Shown: positions 27-55,028 of the stretch, piece after piece
How the letters are laid out: each line of letters opens with the position of its first letter
Numbering within the stretch: the stretch's first letter is position 1
NCBI GenBank assembly: GCA_903813345.2
Contig: CAIIXF020000001.1
Span: forward strand, 39,527,366 to 39,591,365
Length of the DNA: 64,000 bases
Source of the DNA: Owenia fusiformis
Taxonomy: Eukaryota; Annelida; Polychaeta; Sabellida; Oweniidae
Direction of reading: 5' to 3'
Translations under genes and position numbers: made by a program
The notes under the pieces: model-generated
Seen by the model: only the letters and a program-made list of their open reading frames with translations
Database searches by the model: none
Told to the model about the DNA's origin: nothing

Positions 27-13493
<13,467 letters not shown>

Positions 13494-30142: not shown

Positions 30143-30366
30143 TGAAGAATATATTAATAACATAGAAGTTATACTGTAACCATGACAACAAACATTCATA
30201 TACATAACAGATTTACTTATACACGTAATAACAGTTCTTAAAAATGTCATTTTTGACACACGATTGACCGAGGTTTGCGTGTACGTCAAGCATTAGAATG
30301 GGTTATAACAATTGGATAATTAATATTGGTCAATTCTAGATGACTATTAAGTCAAAATTTGAATCA

Positions 30367-33300
30367 CTATTTCCTCGATGAGTGTCTCAACAAGCGAGCA
30401 AGTAGCTCTGAAGAAGGACCGTTCATTAGTTCCTCAAGTTCCGAAGCTAGTCCATTATTCTGTGAAGCTTTACCACCGGAAGGCAAAATTGCCTTAACCA
30501 GGTCGTTCAGTTTGGCAGTTAGACGTCCGTCCAGTGGGCTCGCAAGGTTCTGGTTGATGTAGTTTTGTAGATCGTTGAAGAAATATGAATAGAGTTCAGT
30601 GGGCAACAACGCCGAAAGCAAATTATTATCTGAAAATAGGACAATTAATAATTGCATTACCAGAGAGATGAATTTAGGCAGAAAGTACGAATATTATTAT
30701 GTCCGAGCTATTACCATGGAAAATGGCAGAATGCCAGTGAAAAGTATTTAGCAGGAAAGGACCTTTCACTACGTAAACCGTTTTGTTTGTACCTGCATTG
30801 GCCGAGACATATGAAGCGAATGCATCCAATGATTGTAAAGCTTGCATAAGTTTCAAGTAGCTAAGGTTTATGGTTTCTAGAAAAGTCACCAAGTGGGGCC
30901 TATACGATTCCACGATTTCCTCGCTCATCAGCTTTGACACTAAAACGGCCTTGATATCCGCAACAAACTCCTCCACCCGATCACCAGGCATCCTTATAAA
31001 TTAATTATAAACAGAATGATGCATTGTTAATTGTATTCCACATCAAAACAAATTAAGTCATGTTCTGCATTCTCCAAGACTTTTTCAGTCTGTTTTGATA
31101 GCCGCATTACGTGTTGCTAATGAATGTAAGTGAAATGAGAAGCGATATCGATCAACGAGGCGACTACACACTTTTAATACATATAGTACTTCATGATGCC
31201 AAGCCTACCTGAGTGTATTAGACATTGCTTGCTTGACTGCTGGGAGAACCTCCTCCAAAGGTAAACAATCTTGCTCTGAAAAGTTTGAAAACAATTGATT
31301 GGAAAGAAATTCATCGTCGCATGTTTTAACCGCCAATGGAGTAATGCAGCACACTAAAGAGCAGCACTATTATATAAGGAACTAGGAGCATATGTTTTGA
31401 TATCTTCCCGATTTCGTGTCTAAATATGTATTTCATCTCAAGGGGTCAAAAACGTAAATATTTACATTCGAATTATCTGCATTTTCTAAGACACAGACCG
31501 TGAATCTAAGCGTATACAGATACTTACGGATTCCTTCAACTTTTTTAATAAAAGCATCCTCATTCACCAAAAGATCCTCCTGAATACCATTGACAATTTC
31601 GACGTCCAGGTCAATGATTTGTTTAGCAGTCAGATCCTCTAGGCTATTTAGAGCCTCATTGCCCAGAAGTGCAGCCTTCGACCAATTTGCAGCTTTCTGG
31701 ATTGTGCTCTCGCTAACATAACGTACAATCTCTACAAAAATGCTCATCTTGATTTGAATTTATCTGATTTTGTTGTTGCTTTGAATATTCTGCTTGGACT
31801 AAGGGGAAAGAAAATGCATAAACCAAATAAAAGTATAGGTCCTCTGGCGCATATGCATTTGTAATACAACGGTGTAATTCCAGATCATATGATACGTGTT
31901 TCTTGAAAAATATTAGACAATGGCAGCGAAACCCTTGGACACTTACTTGACACGAGCCTTGGAAACATGTCTGAATTGTCTGGACATAAAGAGGCTTGTG
32001 TCGTAGTCTTAGGACGTGGCGTTACAGGTACCGTAGTGTGGCCTTCTTCGGTGGTGGTCGACTCTGTAGAGAACAGCAAGGCCTGGGTGGTGGACGGGGT
32101 AGTCTCATCTGGTCCCAAAATGACGGTAGTGGTCTCAACAGTGGTTGTGGAAGGAGGTGGTGGCATGGTAACTGTGGTAACCTCCGTCTCTGGTGTTGTA
32201 GGAGGAACAGGGGGATAAAAGAATAATTTCAACAGATCCAGATGTTGCCCAATCTCCTCTCCAAGACGTGTCAGCAGAACATATTCCATTTTGCCGATGA
32301 TGGCTGGATCTATAAAACATACACATTTTATGATGTATCAATTACCATTATATCTGTCAAAATAATATACCATACACAATAATTTACACACTAGCTCATA
32401 ATAACGTACCTTTTACTTTTAATACATAGTCCAGCAGTTTTTGGTAACCATTCTCCGAATCCAATTTGGCAAGTTGGTCGAGGCGTCTATTTACTAACTT
32501 GAAATATTCTGGCGATAGAAGAACTAGTTCCTCAATCAGTCCTTCAATTACTGAAACGATCTCCTCATCTTCGATACCATTGGTGAAACCTTTACTCATA
32601 ATTTTGTACAATTCGTTGAACTCGTCCTCTTTAATCCTAACAATATATAGTTAACACAATGTGTATTAGAAATATTCTCGAATTACTTTTATATTGGATA
32701 TATAGAATTGTAAGGGTTAGGACCCGGTGTAAAAGGGTAGGAGGTACTATCAAATTATGGTCATACTTTCTATTTATTTATATGGTGACCTAAATACAAC
32801 TCTTTCCCTCATTATCGTATCCACAATCAGGGCCAGCAAGGGCCTTTTTGAAAGGGGACCATAATCCCCAGGGGACCATAATCCCCAGGGGACCATCATT
32901 TCTTTTACACCGGTGTGAAAGAAATGACGGTCCCCCAGGGATTATGGTCCCCTTTCTTAACGGCTCTTACTGGCCCTGATTGCGTATAAGATAATGAGGG
33001 AAAGAGTTGTATTTAGGTCACCATATAAATCAATGGAGAGTAGGACCATAATTTGATAGGACATCCTACCCGTTTACACCGGGTCTAGTTTCTCCCGAAG
33101 CCCTTTCAAGACATAGCAGATATGTACTTTTTAAAAATGTCCTCATCCGATATCACTAGATAAGGCGTTCCAAGTTTTTCAAATGTGATTTATTTTTTAC
33201 CCTAAACGTATATTTAATCGGCACGAATAAAAGCCTGGTAATATATTGATGATATTGAAGTAAATCTATCCTTTCTACAAGATGCGAAATAGGTTTTAAG

Positions 33301-36300
33301 TTTACCTGGTAGATACTCAATAAACGATAACCATCAAACCACTGTTTCACAGCTGGATGACTAACTGCAGTCAGTATCATTCAAGATGGTGGTCAAAATT
33401 TTTTCGTTTTTGATAAACCAATGGCAATGATTTCAGCTAATTTTGTAACTAAGTTTAGTTGCAATTAGAGTCATCCAGCTGAACAGTGCCAACGAAAACA
33501 ACAGAACCACCATAGCTTTTCTGTTGTAATTTGGTGTAAAAAATTGAATTATAGAAAATGTACTCACTTAAGTGTTGGCACTATACTCGAGATGAAATTC
33601 AACTCCTCACTTACACTTATACAACCATCTGTAACACATTTAAAATTAAACAGAAGATCTGGATATACAAAGGGGAATTGATAAATCAAAGACCACGTGT
33701 ACCCATTAGTATCTAGACTATTCAAGGCGGACTTAGCAAAGCGAATGGACGTTTTGTGTGTGATAAATTAAAATCCAATGGGTTTCGCACAAAGCTCATC
33801 TTGAAATGTTAACCAAAGCAAAATAGATAACTAACCATAGTTAATTGTTTCTTTTTGTATGGTCCACTCTTCTGCTATCTTTTTCAGTGTTTCTCCCTGT
33901 ATGATACCAGCTAAATTTTTGGCAGCTCTGAGGAGTAATACTTCGGGGACTCGACCTTCTGGTGTTTGATGAGCATTTCTCAATATTGAAAAGATTGTGT
34001 TGGTCAAGATGAAAGAATCTTCGCTATAAGCCCAGTATTGGAATAACTCTGAAAATACGTGAAAATAGGTGAAATGCACTGGAGTACGTTCAGTAAAGGT
34101 TGTACATCAAAATGAGACTTTATACATTCATATATGTGCATACCATATAAGACTTTAAGAACAAACTGGAAGAGCACGACAAATCCACTACTTGGTACTT
34201 ACTTTGAATAACCTCGTCCAACATGACAGATTGACAAGCTGTGGGTAAAGGTTGCAGTTGATTCAAAGATTGAGGGGCCACATCTAAACACACGTTGATT
34301 CGTTGAGGACTTGCAGAAATATTGGACTGAAAGAACAAGTTGTTGTCTATGTATGGACTTAGCAGATTAGCAGCATAAGATAGCTTCTTTAACTTTATTT
34401 TGGCAGGCAATCGAGTAGTCTGCTCAGCAGGCAATCGGGTAGTCGGCTCAGCAGGCAATCGGGTAGTCGGCTCAGCAGGCAACTGAGTAGTCGGTTCTGC
34501 AGGCAACTGAGTAGTCGGTTCAGCAGGCAATTGAGTAGTCGGCTCAGCAGGCAATTGAGTAGTCGGCTCAGCAGGCAATTGAGTAGTCGGCTCAGCAGGC
34601 AGCTGAGTAGTTGGTGCAGCAGGCAATCGAGAAGTTGCTTTAGTAACAAGGGGAGTGTTTGGTTCGGTAGCCAATTGAGTTGTGGGTTTCTTTCCAAAAA
34701 AACTATCTATGGCGTTTCCGACTACTTTGATGGGTTTGAGGAAACGTCTCTCTGAAAATCAAATTAAGAATAAGTTTATTAAGTAACCTGAGTGCATTTA
34801 ATCTGAAACGATATCACATGGAGGCGAAGGTCAAAATACAAAATATTATTGGGGGCACTTTGATATATGGCATCCATACCCTTATTCCAAAATGCTTTAA
34901 ACAGTTACTGTTTGCTTCAACTTCAACGAATTTATTGATTCGAATACAATATTTATCATGTGTACAAGGCATTGTGTATATAATTCCCCATACAATTTTG
35001 CAATGAAATATGCAATGGTCGCCTGTTAATCACAACAATTTTCATTAAGAGGAGGGGGGGGGGCTATATTTATATTTTGTCTTAGAGGGGATTATGATTT
35101 ATGGGTATGGCAAAAATATACTATAACCTCAAATCATTGTTATTGGCTCAATTTGAATCTATGTTATCATTCAGGAAATGCTAAAACGGACCCATAAAAT
35201 ACTATCATTATTAGATATAAATCAGATTAAGGTAACGCTTAAGTTAATCAAATGAACAAAAACATGGCAGCCATATTTTTTTGATAAAGTCACAAGATTT
35301 CGTGTATCTGTTTTCCTTGTATGTGAATGCACTGACTGACTAAAGAGACATGTCAAAGAAAACTTCACATTTAAACGCAATTTTTATAACTATGAATTGG
35401 AGGTGCAAGGGTCCCTAAAGCTAGCATGGAGACAGTGAAGTGAGGATAACGTTTAAAAATTTCAAGGAGTAGGATTGCAATGGAGACACATTTTTATAAC
35501 TATGAATTGGAGGTGCATCGATCCCTAAAGCTAGCATGGAGACCGTGAAGCGAGGATAACTTTCAAGGAGTAGGATTACAACGGAGATACATTTGTAAGA
35601 CTCCAAAATTTCCACAAATCATCTTACCTTACCAAGGAATATTGAAGAAGCATGAAAATGTGTGCTTCTTGCATTGTAAGGGTAAAATAAAACTCAAACC
35701 ATTTTGAATTCTAAATATTTCATGTCCACCATTTTATTTGCTGGGACTATTTTCTAGTCCCAAGTAATCCTCACTCATGTATCCATTGTTTATCATTTAT
35801 AAAGCCTCAATCATGTATCTATCATGATAATTATACTGTTATAGATAAAATATACTTGTGATAATCCATAAAATTTAGCCTCATTTCACGGTCTTAATGT
35901 TAGCTTTTGGGACCCATGCACCTCCAATTCATAGTTATAAAAAATGCGTTTAAAAGTGAAGTTTTCTTTGACATCTCTCTTTAGTCAGGAAATGCATTCA
36001 CATATAAGGAAAACAGAATACAAAATCATGTGACTTAGTCAAAAATATATGGCTGCCATTTTTTGTACTTTTGATTAAGTTAACGGTTACCTTAAACAAT
36101 ACTACCTATATACTGCACGATATACAGTGATTCCCAAGAAATTGGAATCATTTTTCTAATCATTTAAGAAATAGAGACGCACCCGTAGTAACATAGTAGA
36201 GCAAGATGTAAACTCAAAACTACCAGGAATTTACTACATAGAATGTGTATTGCCCCGTTTAAGGTTTAGCTGGAAAGTAACATTTTTGATAAAAAATGCT

Positions 36301-39300
36301 ATACCTGCACATATTATTTTCTGTTACAAAATTAAGTATGAAGGCATGTGTGTATTTCCTTGCTTTTTTCAGGAAAGTATCATTACACTGTCTACTTTTA
36401 GTAAACCTGGAAACAGGTCAATGGTAGCTCCTGTGTTGTCTGGAAACTTTGAAAGAATATTTGGAAAAATAGAAAGTGTGAAATATCAGAATTTCCTGGA
36501 GTTCCCATTGAACTCCTACCAGATATTGTAAAAGAAGACAATGTAAAGATATTTTCCTGAAAAAAAGCAAGGAAATTGACACATGCCTTGATACTTTATT
36601 TTGTACCAGAAAATAACATGTGCAGGTATAGCATTTTTTACCAAACTGTTATTTTCCAGCTTACCTGTACCTGCTTTCTCAAAATGAAAGCACCCGGCCA
36701 ACATCACATATAGACATTATATAGTACAGCTATTGTTGTAAGAGGGCCAATGCGCCCAAGAGAATTCAGCCGAATCTCAAGCATAGTACAGTACCCTGAT
36801 GGAATACATTCTTACCTGTTTGCAATTGTCTCATTTCGTTGTACAAATCGGTTAAGTCAGCATTGTTCCGATGAAAAAAAAGACCTGAAACAGAAGGTTC
36901 AAAAGTGATAGTGATGATTGGTGCATTTTTTGTTCGACTATTTATAGTAAAAGGGGACATGCCATTAAGAGGCCATTCTCTGACTTAGTCATTTTTTCAA
37001 AAGTGTGAAAATAAAAAAAATCATGAAAAGTTCTTAAAATATTCTGAATAACAAGTTGAATATATATATTTAATGATGGCACAAGCAAAAGTCTGAAAAT
37101 TAATATGAAATGAAGGGTTTTGACAGATGCAAAATATGGTAGATTTGTGATGAAGAAATAGAGGTTTTTGCAGTAACAACACAATTACCTCGAAGTTATC
37201 CGTTATAAGAGGCTGAGGACTAAACTTGACATAATTTTCAATCTCAGATTATCAGTAGTATCTAACTTAAGCCGGACAGCCACTCAAAATGTATATGGAG
37301 CCCATAAGATTCATTTTTCTCAATTGAAGTCACTGTTTCTGTTTTTAGCTTCAGAGGATAGGAGGTACATAAACATGCTAAGTTTACCTAGATCACAAGC
37401 CTTACCACAAATATAAAGTATATAGGAATAGAGTTGATATGTGTGAAAACCTTAAACTTCCCATTTTATTGGGGATGGAACTTGTGGACCATGTGTATTT
37501 CTAACTTCTTCACATGTGCATGGATCTAAAATTGTGGCAGCCATCTTGGATTTGTCATATTATGTGGACATGGTTTTGGTTGTGCTGAATTTGTTTCAAA
37601 ATAACATTTCTTGTATACCTTCGATAAGTGAGATAGGCATTTGAAATTAAATACAGATAGTATATACTTGACATTTAATGCAGTAAACAGTAATACAATT
37701 CATTCTTACATAATAAGTAAGTCCAGACAAAAAGTTGTTATTGTGTTCGTTTAACTGGGCATAAATTACACTCATTGGCCTTGGTTTTCTTAATTGGCTT
37801 GGATAAAATGTTGTTCTGTTTATTCAGAAAAGGAGTATAGTTCACATTCGTTCCATCCTCTTGTAGAAATGAATCTCATATTATTTCATCTCAAATATAG
37901 AACACAAGAATATAATTAAAAAAAACAAGATTCTATTAATTGCAAAAGTTAGCTTCTATGTCATGACTGAGTTTGGGTTCCGCTTCTAGGGAAAAAATAT
38001 CCATCTGGAAATATCGTATTGACCATTGCTATACACCCCATATTTAATCCTCCCAGTAAATAACATTGATATACAGTATACAAGTATATATGACATCGAG
38101 GATCTGGGGTTTGGGTAATGTGAAACATGAGGCCACTTGTCTTTTTGAATCTCATATTCAATATTCTTTCTTTAAACCCTCATATTTAATATTTTTGGAT
38201 TGGTAATTCAATTATGTACCTACTTTTTATTCTTTATCCCATAGTTGAACTCTGTTCCGCTCTGTTAGGTAACATGAAAACATATTTATGATATTTTGGA
38301 AATGCGTGGAAAAAGTGATATCTGTGGAATACGGAAAATATTTCACAAATATCACCTTTTGGCAGGGATTTGAAAACTACCACCAATATGATGTGTTTTG
38401 TTACATAGTGATTTCATGACATCACGGGGATGAACGAATGAATGGATTTTGTTATGATATGCTTTGTTTAGTTTTAGAGGTGAACTATGGGAAAAATAGA
38501 ACATCCTATGAATTTTCGTGATATTGTGTTAATCCAACTCATTGATATCAATCTGCGCTAATTCGCTATTCTAACTTGGCAAGATATTGATATCAACTCG
38601 GAGATAAAGATAAAATCATTTAAAATCATATAATATCCTATACATATCCTGTACCACAACTTTCTCATATGTTATATATTTTGGCACAGGCCATCATTTA
38701 TTTTCCTTGAATTCATGCTTTTGTTCCTCGTTTTAGAAATGAGAGGAAATCTTTGATTTTCCTTGTATTTAAGTTGCTTAAATGTTGCCCTGTGATGTTG
38801 ATAAAAGTCAATAGTAATCCATTAGAGTCACAGTTGAAATGTACCCATTGCTAGCCCAGAACCTACCAAAATGGCATTTGCATTTTGTCAATATTGCCCT
38901 ATGTGCTTTTCCATGAAAATAATTTTAATCGTATCTTTTCTTCAGTATTTCATATATTACATTTTAATATATTTAAATTGGTTAATATTTATATACTATT
39001 TACTTAGACAACAATAAATAAAGAATTTTTTGTAAAAACACCAAAAATGGTATATGATCTTTAAATGACTGTTGTGTGAACATCAAAGGTCAAAATTCGC
39101 TGAAATTGTATTTTTATAAAGCACAAATGATTTTTCTTCAATATGATATGCATTATTATCAGATATCTTTTGGGGCTAAAAAGGGCCCTTAATGACACCC
39201 GTCCTTTTAAATGTTAGTGAGTACTTTGAATTTAAAAAATAAGCAATCAAATGACCAAATTGAAACAGCTTAATATGTAAAAATAGAAACATTTATGTTT

Positions 39301-42119
39301 ATCCTAACTTTTGTATATTTCAGATAGTAATGTATAATTTGCAGCAAAGCTGTGGCCTTTTGTAATTTAGGGAGTTTCAGCCATGTTATTTTTCCGAAAA
39401 TAACATGGCAGAGAAGTATCATAATATAAGAGGACACAGATATGATAGCTAAACTACAAAAACTAAAATATACAGTCTGATCCAAAAATAAAAGACACCT
39501 GAAATTTTTAGCACAGTTTTGCTGAATTTGAATATTAAATGTGCCAAACACTCCTCTATTGCTAGAATATATACTCCTGTAAATGATTATTAGCAGGAGT
39601 AATGTCTCCAATGCTTTATATCAGCGTATGGTGGATAGTTTGTAAACATGTGAATCCACTTTTCAAATGGCAGCCATTGTTTTTGTAGTCTCAAACCAAA
39701 ATGAAAATTGTTCAATTTGTATATCTGGTAATGTTATTGTATCAATTGATTGATAAAGACATATAAAGTATGGTAGAATACATATTATAGTTGTGTAAGT
39801 GGTGAAATGTTATTTTAAAATGGATTGTTGCAGAATTGTTTGAGACTATGCACAATTATTTTCAAAAATGGTGGACATTTAACATGTGGAAATCACTTCA
39901 AATTTTTAAGATCCAAATGGTCATTATGGACACAAATTCCACTATACATGTATTTGTATTTTCCAGAACGGAGAAAATATAGTACTAATTCCCTGAGGTA
40001 AGAATTTATTATATGTGCGACAGAATGTCTTTTTGAAATCGATAGTAATTATTTATGGATCTGACTGTACAAAAGTTAGGATTAAGGTGCTATGGAAGTT
40101 AACAGGAAATGACAAAACAGGAAGTGACAATTTTTTTGCATTTTTAGACATTTTTTGAACAAAGATAACAGTTCTGTTTTGACCTCCAGTCAATTTAACT
40201 AGTTCCAAGTACCATTTACAGGTCCAGGATCACAATGTTTATGGTCAGAATGACCCTAAACATGATGAAATAACCTTTTCAGCCCTATGAAAATGTGACT
40301 GAAAAATAGCTAAAAGTAGGAGGTAGGAAAGGTCACTGATCAGAATCTTTTGAATTTTTGAGAAAATGTGCCCAATATATTGCTCTAAATGATACAATCT
40401 TTGAAAATTTGATATCATTCATAGAAAAAAAAATGAAAAAAATGATTTGAAAAGCGATCTATTTTCCTTTTTATGACCGCCGTTTTTGTTTAAGACAATT
40501 TTCTAAAATTTCAAAGATTGTATCAGTTAGAGCATTATATTGGGCACATTTTCTGAAAAATTCAAAAGATTCTGTTCAGTGACCTTCCCTAGCTCCTACT
40601 TTTAGCCTTTTTTCAGTCACACTTTCAAATAGTTCAACAAGTTAAACCCAATACCACGGCTTTCATTTATTAATCTGAATGTTCTTGTAGCCGTGATTGG
40701 GTTTAACTTCCGTGCTATGCTTACATTTGTTGCAAATTCTCACTATCAGTTATTTAAACGCGCATGGAACTCCATGCGCTGCCATAGACCATCATTAAAC
40801 TTTTTTGCATTTAGGGGCAAATAGGCACGGACGTTAAACCTAGGGCGGGCCACAAGATATGTCAGATAAGAAATAAGGCCCAGACTAGGTTTAACTTGTT
40901 GAACTAACTTTCAAAGGGCTAAAAATTTTACTGTAGTACGGTTCTAAAAATACGGAAATCAGTAGTGTTTGAAGTGTAAACTGAAAATAGTTGTTCTTTC
41001 GGAAAGGTCACTGAACAAGTATAATTTTCTCAGTGAATGTGCAAGGATATAATATATATATATATATTGGACACATATTCTGAAAAAATCAAAAGATTCT
41101 GTTCATTGACCTTTCCTGAGCACCTACTTTTAGCTATTTTTCAGTCACATTTTCAGAGGGCTAAAAAGGTTATTTTATCATGTTTATGGTCATTCTGACC
41201 CTTTCAATTGTGTTCCTGGTCATGTAAATGATATTTGGAACTAGTTAAACTGACTGGAGGTCCAAACAGAACTCTGTTATCTTGGTTCAGAAAATTTTCA
41301 AAATCCAGCATGGCTTTGTCATTTTTTGTTTTGTCATTTCCTGTTAACTTCCATGAGACCTTAAACCTTTCCCAGACCTATATATTTTGAAATTATCCCA
41401 TAAATTAGCTCCATAAACGTACCTCCGCACCCAATATTTAGAGGGGGCTCATATCTGAAGAACATTTCCGAATTTTTATAAAATCACACAGATACTGCCT
41501 GGCTTCCAAGATGCAAAAATAATTTGCATGGGTAGTGTATCTTGAACACCATTTTTTATGAATGCTGGGGACGCAGTATTAAAAGGATAGTATCAAAATA
41601 TATAGGTTTGGGAAATGTTTAAGTCATACTGCGTCGCTATAAAATGAATTGCACTACTATTTTCACAATTTTATTGATATTTGGTGTCAAATACACATAT
41701 CTTGGTATATTTGAAGTCCCAAAACGGCTTAGTTTCAGAAATATCCCAATTTTAAATTCAAAAATGACCGTTAGCTCCGCACCCTCCGCTCATTTGCGCC
41801 GCACCCAATATTTCCCAGAGGCTCTGTCTGCATAGGGTGGGTTATAAAAAGAAAAACCGATGGCTTTTTGAATAAGTATGTTCAATTTTATTTTATTTTT
41901 GGGAATGAATTCGAATTTTCAAAACCATGTCCATTGTGATCACTAGTGCCCTCTTTATGCAATTGTAGACCGTATATGAAACGTTATTAATTCCTGAAAT
42001 ACGAGGTACGAGTTTTTTAAAATATAAAAGCCACAATGGTGAGTTCAAATAGTTACAAAGGAAAAAAACTTACTTTGTCCACCCACGGAAAACAACAAAA
42101 TAGCAAACAGGACCCTCAT
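30367..42119 (-). CDS. Predicted secreted two-module helical protein with Thr/Pro repeats, copy A (753 aa)
   Basis: Family not recognised. Eleven exons join in frame: 42074-42119, 36816-36884, 34203-34751, 33836-34048, 33568-33628, 32410-32636, 31947-32309, 31528-31731, 31209-31275, 30793-30992, 30367-30629 (2262 nt with stop). The start ATG opens a signal peptide (MRVLFAILLFSVGG) 59 bp after a TATA box. Next come a short charged segment and nine LPAEPTTQ-type units in exon 3. Module 1 runs from the exon 3 tail through exon 7. A second Pro/Thr linker in exon 7 has mucin-like TTTVETTTV runs. Module 2 runs from the end of exon 7 through exon 11. The modules are leucine-rich and look alpha-helical, with two cysteines each. 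FQSNISA is a possible N-glycosylation site, and the Thr/Pro linkers suit O-glycosylation. Extracellular location is inferred; the function is unknown. Confidence 0.85.
32721..33085. repeat. 365-bp near-perfect palindromic element (intact in copy A)
   Basis: GACCCGGTGTAAAAGGGTAGG at 32721 pairs with CCTACCCGTTTACACCGGGTC ending at 33085. Pairing continues to a centre near 32907 (TTTTACACCGGTGTGAAA). The left arm includes repeated GGGGACCATAATCCCCA words. It lies in the intron between exons 33568-33628 and 32410-32636. Copy B keeps only the left arm (48273-48468). Confidence 0.9.
33156..33380 (-). other. Conserved open frame with splice donor, possible alternative exon
   Basis: A 74-codon frame is open in both copies (here and 48539-48763). 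It begins next to a candidate acceptor (GACTGCAG) and contains a good donor after SIYQ (CAG then GTAAAC at about 33306). The phase does not fit the flanking exons (phase 2 needed on both sides), so I left it out of the gene model. Conservation may only reflect the recent duplication. Confidence 0.25.
34406..34621 (-). repeat. 24-bp coding repeat, 9 units (copy A)
   Basis: In-frame minisatellite inside exon 3 encoding LPAEPTTQ-type octapeptides. Units towards the 3' end of the gene end in Arg instead of Gln (PTTR, QTTR). The same array also keeps a Leu/Arg-rich alternative frame open; that frame is a by-product of the repeat. Confidence 0.95.
35228..36093. repeat. Foldback element in intron 2, copy A
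   Basis: The left arm (about 35228-35440, with AGGTAACGCTTAAGTTAATC ... CTATGAATTGGAGGTGCA) pairs with the right arm (about 35890-36093, with TGCACCTCCAATTCATAG ... TTAACGGTTACCT). The left arm also holds a tandem pair (GAATTGGAGGTGCA..GGGTCCC / ..CGATCCC). In copy B (about 50670-51700) more of the central right arm survives but the outer right end is lost. Confidence 0.75.
36258..36663. repeat. Foldback element in intron 2, copy A
   Basis: TAAGGTTTAGCTGGAAAGTAAC near 36259 pairs with GTTATTTTCCAGCTTA at about 36648-36663. The inner parts pair over about 180 bp (ATGCTATACCTGCACAT with ATGTGCAGGTATAGCAT, and CTTGCTTTTTTCAGGAAAG with its inverse). In copy B the outer left arm is missing (starts about 51950). 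Confidence 0.75.
36956..39212. mobile_element. 2.26-kb copy A-specific insertion with imperfect inverted ends
   Basis: Copy B reads straight from TATAGTAAAA (52567) into ATGTTAGTG, whereas copy A has 2.26 kb between these points. The insert starts AAGGGGACATGCCATTAAGAGG and ends with an imperfect inverse (GGGCCCTTAATGACACCCGTCCTT). No transposase frame is visible. A non-autonomous DNA transposon inserted after duplication is the simplest reading; deletion from copy B is the alternative. Confidence 0.6.
39303..40080. mobile_element. MITE-like element, CCTAACTTTTGTA ends (copy A)
   Basis: CCTAACTTTTGTA at 39303 is inverted as TACAAAAGTTAGG at 40068-40080, with AT on both outer sides and CAGAT continuing the match. 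It contains a perfect 13-bp hairpin at 39380-39409 (GCCATGTTATTTT, loop TCCG). It is also present at 52675-53443 in copy B, so it is older than the duplication. The 113-codon frame inside is conserved between copies but has no domain. Confidence 0.7.
40630..40906. mobile_element. 277-bp MITE with 9-bp target-site duplication (copy A)
   Basis: Terminal inverted repeats TAGTTCAACAAGTTAAACC / GGTTTAACTTGTTGAACTA are flanked by direct repeats ACTTTCAAA at 40621-40629 and 40907-40915. The interior has further inverted pairs around a CCACGGC ... GCCGTGA core. It is present at the identical place in copy B (53985-54264). Confidence 0.9.
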
Positions 42120-42952: not shown

Positions 42953-44165
42953 AATTAAAATTCAACACGTTTGAAATTAGAGTTGAATTATTTTATTTCC
43001 GGTTGATATAACGTCTTAGCGTTAGTGAAAAAAAGTAAAAAAAGTCAGCATCCAGATTATCATTCAAAGTTACGTTGATTAACATATATCTATTACCTGA
43101 ATCAATGTCCCAAATTGCTATATTGTATCGTTTAAGACCTAGAAATATGGCAATTCAATAGCGTATTTGGCAGAACAGTCGAGCGCAAGATGACAACGTA
43201 ATATGTTTATTACAAATCAATTTGTGGATAGGGTTAAATACACCCTTGGTATACACAGCTAACGAAAATTGACCGGTACGGGTCAAAAGCTGGACCGGTA
43301 CGGGTGTGTCTAATTTGAAATATATGATGCCTCCCAATGCTTTTAAGTACCCCAATTTTTTACAGATTTTTAAACGGACCAAAACTCTCTAAATGCGCAT
43401 TTATGCTCTTTTCTCTCGAGAACGACTGTCTCATTTTCACGATAACTTTTATTACGTACTTCTAACATATAAGATCTATTTTTCCCCATCAAGGTATGAT
43501 GTAAATGACATGCTATTTACATCTTGTGAGTTTCAATGACGCGCGTTTGATTTTATAAAAAATGCCAAACTTTTTGACAAAGAATTTCATCCTGCTTGCA
43601 GCGAGAAGACGGACGGTTCGGGGCAATTTGCTTGCAGCGAGAAGACTGATCGGTTCGGGGCAATAGCTGATGAAATTCTTTGTCACAAAGTTTGGCATTT
43701 TTTATAAAATAAAACGCGCGTCATTGAAACTCACAAGATGTAAATAACTTTGTGACAAAGAAAGAAATAAGCTTTGAACCGAGAGATATTCACGATTGAT
43801 ATGCACATTTTTGATTGTGCCATATTAAGCATAAGGATTTCCCTATTGGTCTGGGTCGAGCCTTGTTCGAAAACACAATCCATAAATACATGCTAATTTC
43901 TAAGGAGATAGGAAGTGTATAACGTGTTTATCGATTTTGTTTAAAGATTTAATCAATTATCAAATTGTTTAAGTGGATAAAGTGGTCACACTTGCTTCAA
44001 TTCATAGCGTAATCGACGGATGGAAACTGACCGAATTCCCAATATCCTACCCCGTATTACTGTAGGCTATAAGCACAGTGACCTACAGAGGGCGCTATCA
44101 CAAACAAGTACTGCACGAACCGATAAATTCCCGGGTATTGTAACGCCCTTGGTTTAACTTATGAT
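42953..44165. other. Single-copy spacer between duplicates
   Basis: About 1.2 kb without a counterpart in the other copy. The only clear structure is the hairpin element at 43514-43746. No gene seen. Confidence 0.6.
43514..43746. repeat. Hairpin element with 80-bp near-perfect arms
   Basis: TATTTACATCTTGTGAGTTTC at 43514 pairs with GAAACTCACAAGATGTAAATA ending at 43746. The arms run inward to GAATTTCATC / GATGAAATTC. The loop holds a tandem pair of GCTTGCAGCGAGAAGAC...GGTTCGGGGCAAT units of about 38 bp, GC-richer than the arms. No coding function. Confidence 0.85.
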
Positions 44166-44949
44166 TTTATTTTATTTAGGTATGTTTAAGGAAATTATTT
44201 GATCATTAGATTGATTTTACCAACTTGACCTTTTTGCACCCAGTGACATCATTGGGCTATCATTTGACCTAATTTTGAAATATTATTGTGAAGTACATTT
44301 ATGAGGATACTCTAGATGCAAAATAAGTTAGATTCTGATGGGGGCAGAAAGGGGGTCTGTTGGGACGGTACCTTTTATATGCTGATGCATAAGGACACAG
44401 GAGCTCTGCTCGATAAGGAATAAGGAATCTTTGGCAACTCAAATACCAGTAGACGGATCTGGTTGAAATATTATATGCCGATGCCAAGAGAGAAAGAAGC
44501 TCTGGTCAAGGAGACATTTTCAAAAAGGCCAATTAATTTCAAAATGGCCGTCATCTTTCGTAAAAAACATAATCTCCAATAATTCAAATACTTGTGGACA
44601 GATTTGGTTCAAATTTTACATGTTTATACCTAGGGACAAGGGAGCTCGGTTCGAGAAAAGATTTTCAAGATGGCTGCTATTTATCAAATCAGGTTTTGTT
44701 TGATGGGATTTGCTACTCCGAGGAGTTTCCGTTTTCTAGTTTGAATGTTTAAAAAATGAAGGATTACGAGGCCGACACGTAACTGCTCCATTTTTCTTCA
44801 AACTTGTTCCATTCAAAACCACTTCTTGTACAAAAATATTTTGAAAGTAAGACAGATTTGATCTGTAGTGGCCATTTGGAAAACGGATTAATAATGTTGT
44901 CAGACTTTATGCAGTATCCACTTGTGATCAACTCGATTACGCTGGTACC

Positions 44950-45401
44950 GTTTCGGTAACAAAATGTCGGAACATCGAAGCTATGATTTTTCTTTTTTCC
45001 TTATATCACACCTTGTAGGCAGAATTCTCAAGACTTTAAAAACGAACGTGTATCAGCAACATATGTTTAAGAAAATGTACACATTTGCGAACAAATAGTT
45101 CAGAAGACAACAGAATCGTCGATTTAATTCCTCACTTAAGTTACAGAAGCAGTATTTCGAAAACAGATAAGATCTGCACTTTTAACCCAAATCGTTTCTG
45201 TGACTTAAGTGAGGAATAAAATAGACGATTCTGTTGTCTTCCGAGCTATTTTTTCGCAAACATATACATTCATACATACATACGATACCGATACACGTTT
45301 GTGAGAAAAACGTCGTGCGGATTCTGACTACAACGCGTTGATATAGGGAGAAAAAAGGAAAAATCGTACCTTCGACGTTCCGACATTATTGTTACCGAAA
45401 C
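44950..45401. repeat. Foldback element in copy B flank
   Basis: Counterpart of 29404-29847, with GTTTCGGTAAC at 44950 and GTTACCGAAAC ending at 45401. The inner arms (GACAACAGAATCGTCGATTT and AGACGATTCTGTTGTC) pair better here than in copy A. Confidence 0.8.
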
Positions 45402-45675
45402 GAAGTGAGCGTAATCAAGCGGATCACCAGTGGGATCTCTGAATAGATGATGTTGAAGTATGTTTAAGAGCATTCAGTGTCGTCCTATATTCATAAAATA
45501 TTCGATAGGATTATTGCCGCCTTGGCGATGCTTTCTTCTAGTTTAGAATCGGAGAGTTGCATCTTTTGTCCTATATAGTTATGAAGGATGTATACGGTGG
45601 AAAATGTGCGAGAGGTCACAATGCGCATTTGTCTTCATGAGAGATAACAATTAAAATACGAACATAATATTTCTT

Positions 45676-45681
45676 TTTATT
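45676..45681 (-). terminator. Candidate poly(A) signal, copy B gene
   Basis: AATAAA on the - strand about 225 bp downstream of the copy B stop codon, at the same place as in copy A. Confidence 0.55.
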
Positions 45682-45905
45682 TGAAGAATATATCAATAAC
45701 ATAGAAGTTATACTGTAACCATGACAACAAACATTCATATACATAACAGATTTACTTATACACGTAATAACAGTTCTTAAAAATGTCATTTTTGACACTC
45801 GATTGACCGAGGTTTCCATGCACGTCCAGCATTAGAATGGGTTATAACAATTGGATAATTAATATTGGTCAATTCTAAATGACCATTCAGTCAAAATTTG
45901 AAACA

Positions 45906-48900
45906 CTATTTCCTCGATGAGTGTCTCAACAAGCGAGCAAGTAGCTCTGAAGAAGGACCGTTCAATAGTTCCTCAAGTTCTGAATCAAGTCCATTATTCT
46001 GTGAAGCTTTACCACCGGAAGGCAAAATTGCCTTAACCAGGTCGTTCAGTTTGGCAGTTAGACGTCCGTCCAATGGGCTCGCAAGGTTCTGGTTGATGTA
46101 GTTTTGTAGATCGTTGAAGAAATACGAATAGAGTTCAGTGGGCAACAACGCCGAAAGCAAATTATTATCTGAAAATAGGACAATTAATAAATGCATTACC
46201 AGAGAGATGAATTTACACAGAAAGCACGAATATTATTATGTCCGAGCTATTACCATGGAAAATGGCAGAATACCAGTGAAAAGTATTTAGCAGGAAAGGA
46301 CCTTGCTCTACGTAAACCGTTTTGTTTGTACCTGCATTGGCCGAGACATATGAAGCGAATGCATCCAATGATTGTAAAGCTTGCATGAGTTTCAAGTAGC
46401 TAAGGTTTATGGTTTCCAGAAAAGTCACCAAGTGGGGCCTGTACGATTCCACGATTTCCTCGCTCATCAGCTTTGACACTAAGACGGCCTTGATATCCGC
46501 AACAAACTTATCCACCCGATCACCAGGCATCCTTATAAATTAATTATAAACAGAATTATGCATTGTTAATTTTATTCCACATCAAAACAAATTACGTCAT
46601 GTTCAGCATTCTCTAAGACTTTTTCAGTCTGTTTTGATAGCCGCATTACGTGTTGCTAATGAATGTAAGTGAAATGAGAAGCGATATCGATCAACGAGGC
46701 GACTACACACTTTTAATACATATAGTACTTCATGATGCCAAGCCTACCTGAGTGTATTAGACATTGCTTGCTTGACTGCTGGGAGAACCTCCTCCAAAGG
46801 TAAACAATCTTGCTCTGAAAAGTTTTTAAACAATTTATTGGAAAGAAATTCATCGTCGCATGTTTTAACCGCCAATGGAGTAATGCAGCACACTAAAGAG
46901 CAGCACTATTATATAAGGAACTAGGAGCATATGTTTTGATATCTTCCCGATTTCGTGTCTAAATATGTATTTCATCTCAAGGGGTCAAAAACGTAAATAT
47001 TTACATTCGAATTATCTGCATTTTCTAAGACACAGACCGTGAATCTAAGCGTATACAGATACTTACGGATTTGTTCAACTTTTTTAATAAAAGCATCCTC
47101 ATTCACCAAAAGATCTTCCTGAATACCATTGACAATTTCGACGTCCAGGTCAATGATTTGTTTAGCAGTCAGATCCTCTAGGCTATTTAGAGCCTCATTG
47201 CCCAGAAGTGCAGCCTTCGACCAATTTGCAGCTTTCTGGATTGTGCTCTCACTAACATAACGTACAATCTCTACAAAAATATGTTTATGCTTATCTTGAT
47301 TTGAATTTATCTGATTTTGTTGTTGCTTTGACTATTCTGCTTGGACTAAGGGAAAAGAAAATGCATAAACCAAAGAAAAGTATAGGTCAAGATGTCTGAC
47401 GCATATGCATTTGTACTACAACGGTATAATTCCATATCATATGATACGTTCTTCTTGAAAAATATTAGACCATTGAAGCAAAACCCTTGGACACTTACTT
47501 GACACGAGCCTTGGAAACATGTCTGAATTGTCTGGACATAAAGAGGCTTGCGTAGTAGTCTTAGGACGTGGCGTTACAGGTACCGTAGTCTGGCCTTCTT
47601 CGGTGGTGGTCGACTCTGTAGAGAACAGCAAGGCCTGGGTGGTGGACGGGGTAGTCTCATCTGGTCCCAAAATGACGGTAGTGGTCTCAACAGTGGTTGT
47701 GGAAGGAGGTGGTGGCATGGTAACTGTGGTAACCTCCGTCTCTGGTGTTGTAGGAGGAACAGGGGGATAAAAGAATAATTTCAACAGATCCAGATGTTGC
47801 CCAATCTCCTCTCCAAGACGTGTCAGCAGAACATATTCCATTTTGCCGATGATGGCTGGATCTATAAAACATACATATTTTATGATGTATCAATTACCAT
47901 TATATCTGTCAAAATAATATACCATACACAATAATTTACACACTAGCTCATAATAACGTACCTTTTACTTTTAATACATAGTCCAGCAGTTTTTGGTAAC
48001 CATTCTCCGAATCCAATTTGGCAAGTTGGTCGAGGCGTCTATTTACTAACTTGAAATATTCTGGCGATAGAAGAACTAGTTCCTCAATCAGTCCTTCAAT
48101 TACTGCAGCGATCTCCTCATCTTCGATACCATTGGTGAAACCTTTACTCATAATTTTGTACAATTCGTTGAACTCGTCCTCTTTAATCCTAACAATATAT
48201 AGTAAACACAATGTGTATTAGAAATATTCTCGAATTACTTTTATATTGGATATATAGAATTGCAAGGGTTAGGACCCGGTGTAAAAGGGTAGGAGGTCCT
48301 ATCAAATTATGGTCCTACTTTCTATTTATTTATATGGTGACCTAAATACAACTCTTTCCCTCATTATCGTATCCACAATCAGGGCCAGCAAGGGCCTTTT
48401 TGAAAGGGGACCATAATCCCCAGGGCACCATAATCCCCAGGGGACCATAATTTCTTTTACACCGGGTCTAGTTTCTCCCGAAGCCCTTTCAAGACATAGC
48501 AGATATGTACTTTTTAAAAACGTCCTTATCCGATATCATTAGATAAGGCGTTCCAAGTTTTTCAAATGTGATTTATTTTTTACCCTAAACGTATATTTAA
48601 TCGGCACGAATAAAAGCCTGGTAATATATTGATGATATTGAAGTAAATCTATCCTTTCTACAAGATGCGAAATAGGTTTTAAGTTTACCTGGTAGATATT
48701 CAATAAACGATAACCATCAAACCACTGTTTCACAGCTGGATGATTAACTGCAGTCAGTATCATTCAAGATGGTGGTCAAATTTTTTTCGTTTTTGATAAA
48801 CCAATGGCAATGATTTCAGCTAACTTTGCAACTAAGTTTAGTTGCAATTAGAGTCATCCAGCTGAACAGTGCCAACGAAAACAACAGAACCACTATAGCT

Positions 48901-51900
48901 TTTCTGTTGTAATTTGGTGCAAAAAATTGAATAATAGAAAATGTACTCACTTAAGTGTTGGCACTATACTCGAGATGAAATTCAACTCCTCACTTACACT
49001 TATACAACCATCTGTAACACATTTAAAATTAAACAGAAGATCTGGATATACAAAGGGGAATTAATAAATCAAAGACCACGTGTACCCATTAGTATCTAGA
49101 CTATTCAAGGCGGACTTAGCAAAGCGAATGGACTTTTTGTGTGTGATAAATTAAAATCCAATGGGTTTCGCACAAAGCTCATCTTGAAATGTTAACCAAA
49201 GCAAAATAGATAACTAACCATAGTTAATGGTTTCTTTTTGTATGGTCCACTCTTCTGCTATCTTTTTCAGTGTTTCTCCCTGTATGATACCAGCTAAATT
49301 TTTGGCAGCTCTGAGGAGTAATACTTCGGGGACTCGACCTTCTGGTGTTTGATGAGCATTTCTCAATATTGAAAAGATTGTGTTGGTCAAGATGAAAGAA
49401 TCTTCGCTATAAGCCCAGTATTGGAATAACTCTGAAAATACGTGAAAATAGGTGAAATGCACTGGAGTACGTTCAGTAAAGGTTGTACATCAAAATGAGA
49501 CTTTATACATTCATATATGTGCATACCATATAAGACTTTAAGAACAAACTGGAAGAGCACGACAAATCCACTACTTGGTACTTACTTTGAATAACCTCGT
49601 CCAGCATGACAGATTGACAAGCTGTGGGTAAAGGTTGTAGTTGATTCAAAGATTGAGGAGCCACATCTAAACACACGTTGATTCGTTGAGGACTTGCAGA
49701 AATATTGGACTGAAAGAACAAGTTGTTGTCTATGTATGGACTTAGCAGATTAGCAGCATAAGATAGCTTCTTTAACTTTATTTTGGCAGGCAACTGAGCA
49801 GTCGGTTCGGCAGGCAACTGAGTAGTCGGTTCAGCAGGCAACTGAGTAGTCGGTTCAGCAGGCAACTGAGTAGTCGGTTCAGCAGGCAACTGAGTAGTCG
49901 GTTCAGCAGGCAACTGAGTAGTCGGTTCAGCAGACAATTGAGTAGTCGGTTCAGCAGGCAATTGAGTAGTCGGTTCAGCAGGCAATTGAGTAGTCGGCTC
50001 AGCAGGCAATTGAGTAGTCGGCTCAGCAGGCAATTGAGTAGTCGGCTCAGCAGGCAATCGAGAAGTTGCTTCAGTAACAAGGGGAGTGGTTGGTTCGGTA
50101 GCCAATTGAGTTGTGGGTTTCTTTCCAAAAAAACTATCTATGACGTTTCCGACTACTTTGATGGGTTTGAGGAAACGTCTCTCTGAAAATCAAAATAAGA
50201 ATAAGTTTATTAAGTAACCCGAGTGCATTTAATCTGAAACGATATCACATTGACGCGAAGGTCAAAATACAAAATATTATTGGGGGCACTTTGATATATG
50301 GCATTTCAGCAATTTATGAATCTAAAACATAGATTCAAATTATTATTTTTGAGCCCCAAAAATATGAAATATCATGGTTATATACGATTGATGATCCATA
50401 CCCTTATTCCAATATACTTTAAACCGTTACTGTTTGCTTCAACTTCAACGAATTTATTGATTCGAATACAATTTTCATTAAGGGGGGGGGGGTCTACGTA
50501 TATTTATATTTTGTCTTAGAGGGAATTATGATTTATGGGTATGGCAAAAATATACTATAACCTCAAATCATTGAACTATGTTATTGGCTCAATTTGAATC
50601 TATGTTGTCATTCAGGAAATGCTAAAACGGACCCATAAAACACCATCATTATTAGATATACATCAGATTAAGGTAACGCTTAAGTTAATCAAATGGACAA
50701 AAACATGGCAGCCATATTTTTTTGATAAAGTCACAGGATTTCGTGTATCTGTTTTCCTTGTAGGTGAATGCACTGACTGACTAAAGAGACATGTCAAAGA
50801 AAACACCACATTTAAAAGCAATTTTTATAACTATGAATTGGAGGTGCAAGGGTCCCTAAAGCTAGCATGGAGACAGTGAAGTGAGGATAACGTTTAAAAA
50901 TTTCAAGGAGTAGGATTGCAATGGAGACACATTTTTTATAACTATGAATTGGAGGTGCATCGATCCCTAAAGCTAGCCTGGAGACCGTGAAGCGAGGATA
51001 ACTTTTCAAAATTTCAAGGAGTAGGATTGCAATGGAGACGCATTTGTAAGACTCCAAAATTTCCACAAATCATCTTACCTGACCAAGGAATATTGAAGGA
51101 GCATGAAAATGTGTGCTTCTTGCATTGTAAGGGTATAATAAAACTTTTTTTTTTTGAATTCTAAATATTTCATGTCCACCATTTTGTTTGCTGGGACTAT
51201 TTTCTAATCCTCACTCATGTATCCATGGTTTATCATTTATAAAGCCTCTATCATGTATCTATCATGATGATTATACTGTTATAGATAAAATATACTTGTG
51301 ATAATCCATGCCACTTGGTGAAGTCACAAAACTTGTATGAGGATTAATCAGGAAGTCTAGAAGTAGTTCCAGCAAACAAAATGGCGGACATGAAATATTT
51401 ATAAGAAACTATGGTTTGAGCTTATCGTACTCTAACAAAGCAAGAAGTGCACATTTTCATGCTCCTTTGATGTTCCTTTGTAAGGTAAGATGATTTGTGG
51501 AAATGTTGGATTCTTGCAAATGTGTGACCGTTACAATGCTACTCCTTGAAACATTCAAAAATTAGACTCTCGTCACACTCTTCATGCTAGCTTTGGGGAT
51601 CCATGCACCTCTAATTCATAGTTTTGAAAAATGCATTTAAATGTGATGTTTTCTTTGACGTGTCCGTTTAGTCAGGAAATGCATGCACATACAAGAAAAA
51701 CATTTTGAGGTTGAGATATACCCATAATACCCACAACAATTTTTGTCAGGGGTGAAGTGGGATAAAGATCAAAACTGGCAACATTGTTTCCAGAAATTTA
51801 TATCAGACCAAGTGGATTCTTGATTGGGGTGGTACAATGGTCATATTTATGAAAAATATCACCATATCTCGACCAATCCACCTAAACAGTCTAATATAAC

Positions 51901-54900
51901 ATCATGTATAAAACAATGGAGAAGACCTTAAACAATACTACCTATATAAATTATGTATGAAGGCATTGTATTTCCTTGCTTTTTTCAGGAAAGTATCATT
52001 ACACTGTCTACTTTTAGTAAACCTGGAAACAGGTCAATGGTAGCTCCTGTGTTGTCTGGAAACTTTGAAAGAATGTTTGGAAAAATAGAAAGTGTGAAAT
52101 ATCAGAATTTCCTGGAGTTCCCATTGAACTCCTACCAGATATTGTAAAAGAAGACAACGTAAAGATATTTTCCTGAAAAAAGCAAGGAAATTGACACATG
52201 CCTTGATACTTTATTTTGTACCAGAAAATAACATGTGCAGGTATAGCATTTTTTTACCAAACTGTTATTTTCCAGCTTACCTGTACCTGCTTTCTCAAAA
52301 TGAAAGCACCCGGCCAACATCACATATAGACATTATATAGTACAACTATTGTTGTAAGAGGGCCAATGCGCCCAAGAGAATTCAGCTGAATCTCAAGCAT
52401 AGTACAGTATCCGGATGGAATACATTCTTACCTGTTTGCAATTGTCTCATTTCGTTGTACAAATCGGTTAAGTCAGCATTGTTCCGATGAAAAAAAAGAC
52501 CTGAAACAGAAGGTTCAAAAGTGATAGTGATGATTGGTGCATTTTTTGTTCGACTATTTATAGTAAAATGTTAAATGTTAGTGTACTTTGAATTTAAAAA
52601 ATAAGCAATCAAATGACCAAATTGAAACAGCTTAATATGTAAAAATAGAAACATTTATGTTTATCCTAACTTTTGTATATTTCAGATAGTAATGTATAAT
52701 TTGCAGCAAAGCTGTGGCCTTTTGTAATTTAGGGAGTTTCAGCCATGTTATTTTTCCGAAAATAACATGGCAGAGAAGTATCATAATATAAGAGGACACA
52801 GATATGATAGCTAAACTACAAAAACTAAAATATACAGTCTGATCCAAAAATAAAAGACACCTGAAATTTTTAGCACAGTTTTGCTGAATTTGAATATTAA
52901 ATGTGCCAAACACTCCTCTATTGCTAGAATATATACTCCTGTAAATGATTATTAGCAGGATTAATGTCTCCAATGCTTTATATCAGCGTATGGTGGATAG
53001 TTTGTAAACATGTGAATCCACTTTTCAAATGGCAGCCATTGTTTTTGTAGTCTCAAACCAAAATGAAAATTGTTCAATTTGTATATCTGGTAATGTTATT
53101 GTATCAATTGATTGATAAAGACATATAAAGTATGGTATAATACATATTAAAGTTGTGTAAGTGGTGAAATGTTATTTTAAAATGGATTGTTGCAGAATTG
53201 TTTTTGAGACTATGCACAATTATTTTCAAAAATGGTGGACATTTAACATGTGGAAATCACTTCAAATTTTTAAGATCAAAATGGTCATTATGGACACAAA
53301 TTCCACTATACTGTATTTGTATTTTCCAGAACGGAGAAAATATAGTACTAATTCCCTGAGGTAAGAATTCATTATATGTGCGGCAGAATGTCTTTTTGAA
53401 ATCGATAGTAATTATTTATGGATCTGACTGTACAAAAGTTAGGATTAAGGTGCTATGGAAGTTAACAGGAAATGACAAAACAGGAAGTGACAATTTTCTT
53501 TGCATTTTTAGACATTTTTTGAACAAAGATAACGGAGTTCTGTTTTGACCTCCAGTCAATTAAACTAGTTCCAAGTACCATTTACAGGTCCAAGATCACA
53601 ATGTTTATGGTCAGAATGACCCTAAACATGATGAAATAACCTTTTCAGCCCTATGAAAATGTGACTGAAAAATAGCTAAAAGTAGGAGGTAGGAAAGGTC
53701 ACTGAACAGAATCTTTTGAATTTTTGAGAAAATGTGCCCAATATGATACAATCTTTGAAAATTTGATATCATTCATAGAAAAAAAAAATGAAAAAAATGA
53801 TTTGAAAAGCGATCTATTTTCCTTTTTATGACCGCCGTTTTTGTTTTAGACAATTTTCTAAAATTTCAAAGATTGTATCAGTTAGAGCATTATATTGGGC
53901 ACATTTTCTGAAAAATTGAAAAGATTCTGTTCAGTGACCTTCCCTAGCTCCTACTTTTAGCTTTTTTTCAGTCACACTTTCAAATAGTTCAACAAGTTAA
54001 ACCCAATACCACGGCTTTCATTTATTAATCTGAATGTTCTTGTAGCCGTGATTGGGTTTAACTTCCGTGCTATGCTTACATTTGTTGCAAATTCTCACTA
54101 TCAGTTATTACTTAAACGCGCATGAAATTCCATGCGCTGCCATAGACCATCATTAAACTTTTTTGCATTTAGGGGCAAATAGGCACGGACGTTAAACCTA
54201 GGGCGGGCCACAAGATATGTCAGATAAGAAATAAGGCCCAGACTAGGTTTAACTTGTTGAACTAACTTTCAAAGGGCTAAAAAGGTTATTTCATCATGTT
54301 TAGGGTCATTCTGACCATGCACATTGTGGTCCTGGTCATGTAAATGATATGTGGAAATAGGACTGGAGGTCAAACCAGAACTCTGTTATCTTTGTTAAAA
54401 AAATGTCTAAAAATGCAAAAAAAATTCACTTTCTGTTTCGTCATTTCCTGTTTACTTCCATGGCACCTTAATATAAATGTTTCTAATTTTACATAAACTG
54501 TTTCAATTTGGTCATTTGATTGCTTATTTTTTAAATTCAAAGTACCCACTTTAAAATTTTACTGTAGTACGGTTCTAAAAATACGGAAATCAGTAGTGTT
54601 TGAAGTGTAAACTGAAAATAGTTGTACTTTCGGAAAGGTCACTGAACAAGTATAATTTTTTCAGTGAATGTGCAAGGATATAATGCTAAACGATAGTAGC
54701 CTGGAAGATTTGACAAAATGTAGTGAAACAAGAATGGCGGTTATAAAAAGAAAAACCGATGGTTTTTGAATAAGTATGTTCAATTTATTTTTATTTTTGG
54801 GAATGAATTCGAATTTTCAAAACCATGTCCATTGTGATCACTAGTGCCCTCTTTATGCAATTATGAAAGATGTAGACCGTATATGAAACGTTATTTATTC

Positions 54901-55028
54901 CTGAAATACGAGGTACGAGTTTTTTTTATAAATGTAAAGCCATAATGGAGAGTTCAAATAGTTACAAAGAAAAAAAACTTACTTTGTCCACCCACGGAAA
55001 ACAACAAAATAGCAAACAGGACTCTCAT
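45906..55028 (-). CDS. Predicted secreted two-module helical protein with Thr/Pro repeats, copy B (about 769 aa)
   Basis: Paralogue of the gene at 30367-42119 with the same 11 exons and phases: 54983-55028, 52432-52500, 49586-50182, 49219-49431, 48951-49011, 47962-48188, 47499-47861, 47067-47270, 46748-46814, 46332-46531, 45906-46168. Every splice site and the frame look intact, so nothing marks it as a pseudogene. It has 11 LPAEPTTQ units, one of them LSAEPTTQ. Visible replacements relative to copy A include GNAIDS to GNVIDS, EEIVSV to EEIAAV, VEGI to VEQI, RVEEF to RVDKF and GLASELEELM to GLDSELEELL; both cysteines of each module are kept. The signal peptide exon is unchanged in protein sequence. 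The function is unknown. The matching promoter suggests similar expression unless distal elements differ. Confidence 0.84.
48273..48468. repeat. Half-deleted palindromic element (copy B)
   Basis: Keeps the left arm of the copy A palindrome (GACCCGGTGTAAAAGGG ... GGGGACCATAAT) and then jumps at TTTTACACCGG directly to the outer right end (ACCGGGTC). About 170 bp, essentially the whole right arm, is gone. Confidence 0.85.
49789..50052 (-). repeat. 24-bp coding repeat, 11 units (copy B)
   Basis: In-frame array in exon 3 of copy B, two units longer than in copy A and more homogeneous (almost all LPAEPTTQ). Unit variants alternate in blocks (CAACTGAG units 49789-49932, CAATTGAG units after that), as expected from unequal exchange or slippage. 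Confidence 0.95.
52675..53443. mobile_element. MITE-like element, CCTAACTTTTGTA ends (copy B)
   Basis: Counterpart of 39303-40080 with the same ends and internal hairpin. It interrupts the left arm of the foldback 52588-54545: the flanks CATTTATGTTTAT and ATTAAGGTGC match the continuous right arm (GGCACCTTAATATAAATG) once the element is removed. Confidence 0.75.
53985..54264. mobile_element. MITE with 9-bp target-site duplication (copy B)
   Basis: Same element and same flanking ACTTTCAAA repeats (53976-53984 and 54265-54273) as 40630-40906. Presence in both copies shows that insertion came before duplication. Confidence 0.88.

Follow-up and report, generated by a model that had tools for sequence, protein, structure and literature searches.

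Background

Secreted proteins that combine helical or globular domains with repetitive, low-complexity segments are known from several systems. Gel-forming mucins carry VWD, cystine-knot or other Cys-rich domains, and spidroin-type silks possess a signal peptide, helical terminal domains and a repetitive middle; Pfam includes models of the spidroin terminal domains. Among annelids, the tube cements of sabellariids (the Pc and Sa proteins) are Gly- or Ser-rich, with Sa-1 and Sa-2 being basic and Pc-3 polyphosphorylated (PMC4275877).

The gene pair described here lies in a stretch of 64,000 nucleotides of the polychaete Owenia fusiformis (hereafter the window; assembly GCA_903813345.2, contig CAIIXF020000001.1, forward strand, positions 39,527,366 to 39,591,365). 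Like secreted and gel-forming mucins, its product has a signal peptide and Thr/Pro tandem repeats, encoded in this pair by a length-variable minisatellite, but its two linkers, of 111 and 76 aa, are short, and helical modules make up most of the remainder. It further differs from gel-forming mucins in having no Pfam match, and therefore no mucin-type VWD or cystine-knot domain, and in having five cysteines in 769 aa. The alternation of helical modules with repetitive low-complexity segments recalls the spidroins, but the repeats are Thr/Pro rather than Ala/Gly, there is no N-terminal module, and the Pfam matches of copy B, searched whole or in pieces (maximum E 10), include no spidroin N- or C-terminal domain. 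With the sabellariid cements it shares being a secreted annelid protein, possibly one destined for the tube. Unlike these, however, it is acidic (pI 4.68 for copy B), with 25 Gly, 51 Ser and 19 Tyr among 769 residues and a composition rich in Leu, Thr, Glu and Pro.

Organization of the gene pair

Gene models rebuilt from the DNA give two complete minus-strand genes, A and B, in head-to-tail arrangement:

30367..42119, minus strand: gene A; 11 exons, 2262 nt, 753 aa plus stop, GT-AG introns, open frame
42119-42074, 36884-36816, 34751-34203, 34048-33836, 33628-33568, 32636-32410, minus strand: gene A exons 1-6 (high to low)
32309-31947, 31731-31528, 31275-31209, 30992-30793, 30629-30367, minus strand: gene A exons 7-11 (high to low)
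45906..55028, minus strand: gene B; 11 exons, 2310 nt, 769 aa plus stop, GT-AG introns, open frame
55028-54983, 52500-52432, 50182-49586, 49431-49219, 49011-48951, 48188-47962, minus strand: gene B exons 1-6 (high to low)
47861-47499, 47270-47067, 46814-46748, 46531-46332, 46168-45906, minus strand: gene B exons 7-11 (high to low)
42179..42186, minus strand: gene A TATA-like element TATAAATA, with CCAAT upstream of it (read from sequence)
55088..55095, minus strand: gene B TATA-like element TATAAATA (read from sequence)
30137..30142, minus strand: gene A AATAAA poly(A) signal (read from sequence)
45676..45681, minus strand: gene B AATAAA poly(A) signal (read from sequence)

A first-pass annotation of this DNA had proposed two complete 11-exon genes of 753 and about 769 codons, with intact frames, splice sites and promoter. 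The rebuilt models agree with it throughout: they encode 753 and 769 aa without internal stops, all 20 introns begin with GT and end with AG, and both genes are preceded by CCAAT and the TATA-like element. Each copy has one AATAAA within 500 bases downstream.

The window contains other features on either side of the pair. Exons of a ferlin gene lie at 7638-12151 on the plus strand (PF22901, ferlin dsRNA-binding-like domain, E 4.1e-14; PF16165, C-terminus, E 7e-12). Downstream of them, a 51-bp tandem array at 13449-13684 (plus strand, about 4.7 copies) repeats the coding end and stop of the ferlin gene, as though the gene's final coding segment had undergone amplification on its downstream side. 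A complex minisatellite of about 870 bp, with periods of 24, 25 and 49 bp and longer, occupies 18728-19594. Upstream of gene B, a Cys-rich frame at 57015-57386 (minus strand) looks like the terminal exon of a gene, perhaps a secreted one; no Pfam family matched it over cut-off (EGF_3 reached E 0.5), and a search of its own genome at E up to 0.001 returned the frame itself and nothing else.

Anatomy of the predicted protein

Copy B, from which the protein description below is taken, consists in order of a signal peptide, a short N-terminal piece, linker 1, module 1, linker 2 and module 2. The corresponding features are:

54983..55028, minus strand: gene B exon 1, signal peptide MRVLFAILLFSVGGQ, residues 1-15 (hydropathy)
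42074..42119, minus strand: gene A exon 1, signal peptide (gene model)
49786..50119, minus strand: gene B coding minisatellite, PTTQLPAE linker (Tandem Repeats Finder, pattern scan)
34403..34635, minus strand: gene A coding minisatellite for the PTTQLPAE linker, about 9.7 copies of the 24-nt unit (Tandem Repeats Finder, pattern scan)
47962..49431, minus strand: gene B exons 4-6, core of module 1; intron phases 1,1,2,1 (exons 4-7); Cys 227 and 311
47499..47861, minus strand: gene B exon 7, comprising the end of module 1, the 76-aa Thr/Pro linker and the start of module 2 (Cys 513)
45906..47270, minus strand: gene B exons 8-11, module 2 and C-terminal tail; intron phases 1,1,2,1; Cys 597

The N-terminus contains the segment VLFAILLFSVG, with an 11-residue hydropathy of 2.77, and every 19-residue window starting after residue 20 stays at or below 1.19. 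A hydrophobic N-terminus followed by no further membrane-like segment is as expected for a secreted soluble protein, so that, by hydropathy, the signal peptide and secretion claimed at first pass are upheld. The two mucin-like Thr/Pro linkers claimed there are also present. Linker 1 (111 aa, 50% T+S+P) is built on the unit PTTQLPAE and encoded by the 24-nt minisatellite, which in gene B runs to 11.3 copies over 49786-50057, with a 72-nt period over 49786-50119; linker 2 (76 aa) reaches 59% T+S+P. The minisatellite preserves the reading frame while differing in length between A and B. PTTQLPAE, in any codons, has 15 exact matches in the genome, six in A and nine in B, and none elsewhere. Three N-glycosylation sequons are found in B, and its five cysteines are at 209, 227, 311, 513 and 597.

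Module 1 takes in the end of exon 3 and the start of exon 7 in addition to its core. The helical character of the modules, another part of the earlier description, is favoured by an amphipathic, hydrophobic periodicity that peaks at 95 degrees in both, and by a model of exon 6 that has four helices (mean pLDDT 70.4, pTM 0.44), folded from an alignment that also contained exon 6 of the other copy and exon 10 of each; a crude propensity assignment gave helix and strand mixed. The fold model of exon 11 was set aside at a mean pLDDT of 48.7.

Divergence between the two copies

Self-BLAST places each gene, with its flanks, in one of two duplicated blocks:

~28625..42954, minus strand: duplicated block, copy A (gene A and flanks; self-BLAST)
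~44166..55862, minus strand: duplicated block, copy B (gene B and flanks; self-BLAST)
36953..39206, unstranded: repeat element of 2254 bp in intron 1, copy A only (absent from B by self-BLAST)

The blocks align as collinear pieces of 92.5-98.5% identity, and about 1.2 kb of other, gap-free sequence lies between them. Immediately outside the genes, 493 of 500 upstream bases and 486 of 500 downstream bases are identical. Within the coding sequence, the minisatellite being left out, the copies differ by 17 synonymous and 10 non-synonymous changes (S = 449.5, N = 1527.5), giving a Ks of 0.039, a Ka of 0.0066 and a Ka/Ks of about 0.17; about 6 of the 27 differences would be expected to be synonymous under neutrality, against the 17 observed (binomial p = 9e-6). 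By region, Ka is 0.0033 for that of module 1 and 0.0101 for module 2. A Ks of 0.24 for the minisatellite was discarded because the alignment of repeat units there is arbitrary. Introns 3-10, summed, are identical in 2019 of 2069 aligned columns, gap columns excluded (169 in intron 5, 13 in intron 7); introns 1 and 2 (2243/2462 and 1683/1975 identical) were left out of this sum since large insertions spoil their alignment. Protein-changing sites have thus changed at about a quarter of the rate of introns 3-10, and synonymous sites somewhat faster than these introns. Given the difference between Ks and Ka, both copies look constrained, and A and B are apparently working copies of one gene. The pair had been put forward as a recent tandem duplication with both copies intact, and the high identity of the blocks, the open frames and the low Ka/Ks all speak for this.

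The 2254-bp element in intron 1 of gene A has at least 33 further copies of at least 2,200 bases, at 94-99% identity, among the 40 of 782 candidates that were scored. These near-full-length copies mark it as a recently active mobile element.

A probable internal duplication of a four-exon module

The helical part of the protein probably arose by duplication of a single module within the gene, with exons 4-7 corresponding to exons 8-11. This duplication was missed by the first-pass annotation and is new here. We take it as likely mainly because gene structure and cysteine spacing match. Exons 4-7 and 8-11 are similar in length and share the phases 1,1,2,1; in each module the cysteines lie at offsets 2 and 86, hence 84 residues apart, and the introns fall at positions 13/15, 84/83, 104/105 and 180/172 of modules 1/2. 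When introns were placed at random with uniform phases, spacing and phases were reproduced in 0 of 150000 trials (90 without the phase demand); with 80% phase 1 introns the figures were 12 and 77 of 150000, and with a looser tolerance 214 and 1006 of 150000. Permuting the exon order gave such a match in 970 of 200000 cases. The nulls and tolerances of all these tests were chosen after the match had been seen.

Taken alone, the residue signal for such a duplication is weak. Local alignment of module 1 with module 2 gave p = 0.002-0.023 against residue shuffles under four scorings and p = 0.026-0.11 against heptad-block shuffles. Three of the four scorings aligned introns 1 and 3 and the second cysteine exactly and intron 2 within two residues; in these three, intron 4 fell outside the alignment and the first cysteine was aligned in one. 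Reversing module 2 gave scores of 72, 90 and 75 against 76, 100 and 90 in true order, and under BLOSUM62 the reversed module (55) scored above the true order (51) and the register was lost. MAFFT alignments did not recover the whole-module register, and a MAFFT alignment of exons 4 and 8 contained long gaps. In single-exon comparisons the matching pairs reached Z values of -0.4 (4/8), 1.3 (5/9), 1.0 (6/10) and -0.9 (7/11), the highest value (2.9) belonging to the non-matching pair 5/11. When the halves of module 1 were compared with those of module 2, only 6 of 1000 shuffles equalled the similarity of the second halves, against 55 of 1000 for the first halves. A four-fold repeat, with the half-modules alike within each module, found no support, 425 and 644 of 1000 shuffles being as good.

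Searches for relatives

The first-pass annotation had recognised no domain, and the same result was obtained with copy B in Pfam, NCBIfam and the PDB sequences, where all matches were at chance level. With the whole protein, no Pfam family was found at E up to 10, although the filters of HMMER discard most hits weaker than about E 0.1. The modules and pieces without linkers gave chance-level matches in Pfam and NCBIfam, none over a curated cut-off; even the best, to a sigma factor (E 0.038), FANCI_S1 (E 0.051) and DUF7784 (E 0.11), fell far short of it. Among PDB sequences, phmmer with each module reached a best E of 1.1. The module-by-module comparison with masked linkers that had been suggested at first pass was thus carried through at the sequence level, with no confident match, and at the level of fold for exon 6 alone, for which the best Foldseek match had E 1.7.

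The protein's own genome was searched exon by exon, a procedure that would miss distant paralogues. With an E limit of 1, module 2 matched the two copies and nothing else. Module 1, searched with an E limit of 10, matched the two copies and one further place, on contig C10 (E 6.64); on reading the sequence, the latter lies in a reverse transcriptase frame and was rejected as a relative. A search with module 2 of a collection of bacterial and archaeal genomes confirmed no relative. As far as the family libraries, structures and literature searched extend, the protein appears undescribed. Animal genomes contain many such orphan secreted genes, and the pair illustrates well what an undescribed secreted protein looks like, without being a categorically new system: it is interesting as a candidate and ordinary as a kind.

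A separate observation in the same genome concerns the erythrocruorin linker C-terminus (PF16915), a family we take to be confined to annelids. Three matches over cut-off lie within 15 kb on contig C6 (27033687-27048438), on both strands, and the best is adjoined by what reads as an LDL-receptor-A-like exon; these are perhaps a cluster of genes for linkers of the giant blood haemoglobin. Matches to this family mark the genome as that of an annelid. The syt1 forward primer published for Owenia fusiformis (PMC8111721) has a single exact match in the genome, where a 20-mer would be expected to have about 0.001 by chance (498 Mb, both strands); it lies in an exon that reads as the membrane segment of synaptotagmin. 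The elav1 forward primer had no match, and the syt1 reverse primer, trimmed of a presumed adapter, was absent from the 9.9 kb inspected; interruption by introns could account for both. A COX1 search found no match, perhaps because the assembly lacks the mitochondrion, and one for the mollusc haemocyanin beta-sandwich found none either, though its controls also gave no signal.

Possible function

We tentatively favour the view that the pair encodes a secreted, acidic, mucin-linked glycoprotein which acts as a scaffold, cross-linking a secretion of the epidermis such as mucus or the organic tube lining. The Thr/Pro linkers would be O-glycosylated, stiff and hydrated, keeping the helical modules apart, and the modules would bind each other or partner molecules, producing the cross-linked scaffold. 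One disulphide per module is possible, between the two cysteines 84 residues apart; as the other four cysteines would then pair within modules, the fifth, Cys209, would be free to join two chains into a dimer. Tandem duplication of the gene may raise its dose. Secreted proteins of immune, reproductive or enzyme-like kinds also carry mucin-like linkers, which counts against a scaffold. The placement in the epidermal secretion of the worm is suggested by what is known of polychaete tubes: the tube lining of Owenia collaris is described as secreted, and protein is apparently present in the tubes of all polychaetes (PMC4375521). Among the open-access titles and abstract openings listed by literature searches, some of them aimed at other subjects, none concerned a protein of the tube or mucus of Owenia.

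Proteins of reproductive or larval secretions are often lineage-restricted, duplicated and Thr/Pro-linked, and a role as an egg coat, seminal or larval secretion, although somewhat unlikely in our estimation, would fit the recent duplication of the pair, the different length of the coding minisatellite in A and B and the lack of detected relatives in the genome. Gamete-recognition proteins usually change fast, however, and the Ka/Ks outside the minisatellite indicates constraint. The low Ka values of both module regions do not suggest diversification, and copy B has no credible similarity to any carrier or immune family in Pfam or the PDB. We consider it unlikely that this is a defence or coelomic-fluid protein, such as a carrier of lipids or small ligands with helical binding modules, even though the amphipathic periodicity of the modules and the acidic, secreted nature of the protein would suit one.

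A quite different explanation is that assembly accounts for part of the tandem arrangement, a single gene being represented by two haplotypes placed end to end. The divergence of A and B, about 2-4%, falls within the range of allelic differences in marine invertebrates, and alleles can also differ by an extra repeat element such as that in intron 1. Against this, the window contains no N and about 1.2 kb of other sequence intervenes between the copies, and since the sequence is gap-free an artefact is less likely. If the assembly used here derives from the published Owenia assembly, the latter was built from long reads with an N50 of 25.75-30.75 kb and purged of haplotigs (PMC9977687). Altogether we regard an artefact as distinctly improbable.

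The scaffold we favour can be extended into a bolder proposal, which we consider rather unlikely: a new family of helical domains with a fold of its own, confined to oweniids or to annelids, that originated as a single unit of four exons, was duplicated within one gene with a mucin-type spacer and came to serve as a disulphide-linked scaffold of tube or mucus. Oweniids, which live in tubes with a secreted lining (PMC4375521), are members of the lineage that is sister to all other annelids. If this proposal were true, the oweniid scaffold would join the sabellariid cements and the chitin-protein tubes as another kind of annelid tube building block. Should the exon-cassette repeat be real, a deeper search for homologues could use each half to find the other. 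As a constrained secreted pair with no detected relatives, the two genes are in any case a concrete candidate for the proteomics of the tube and mucus of this worm.
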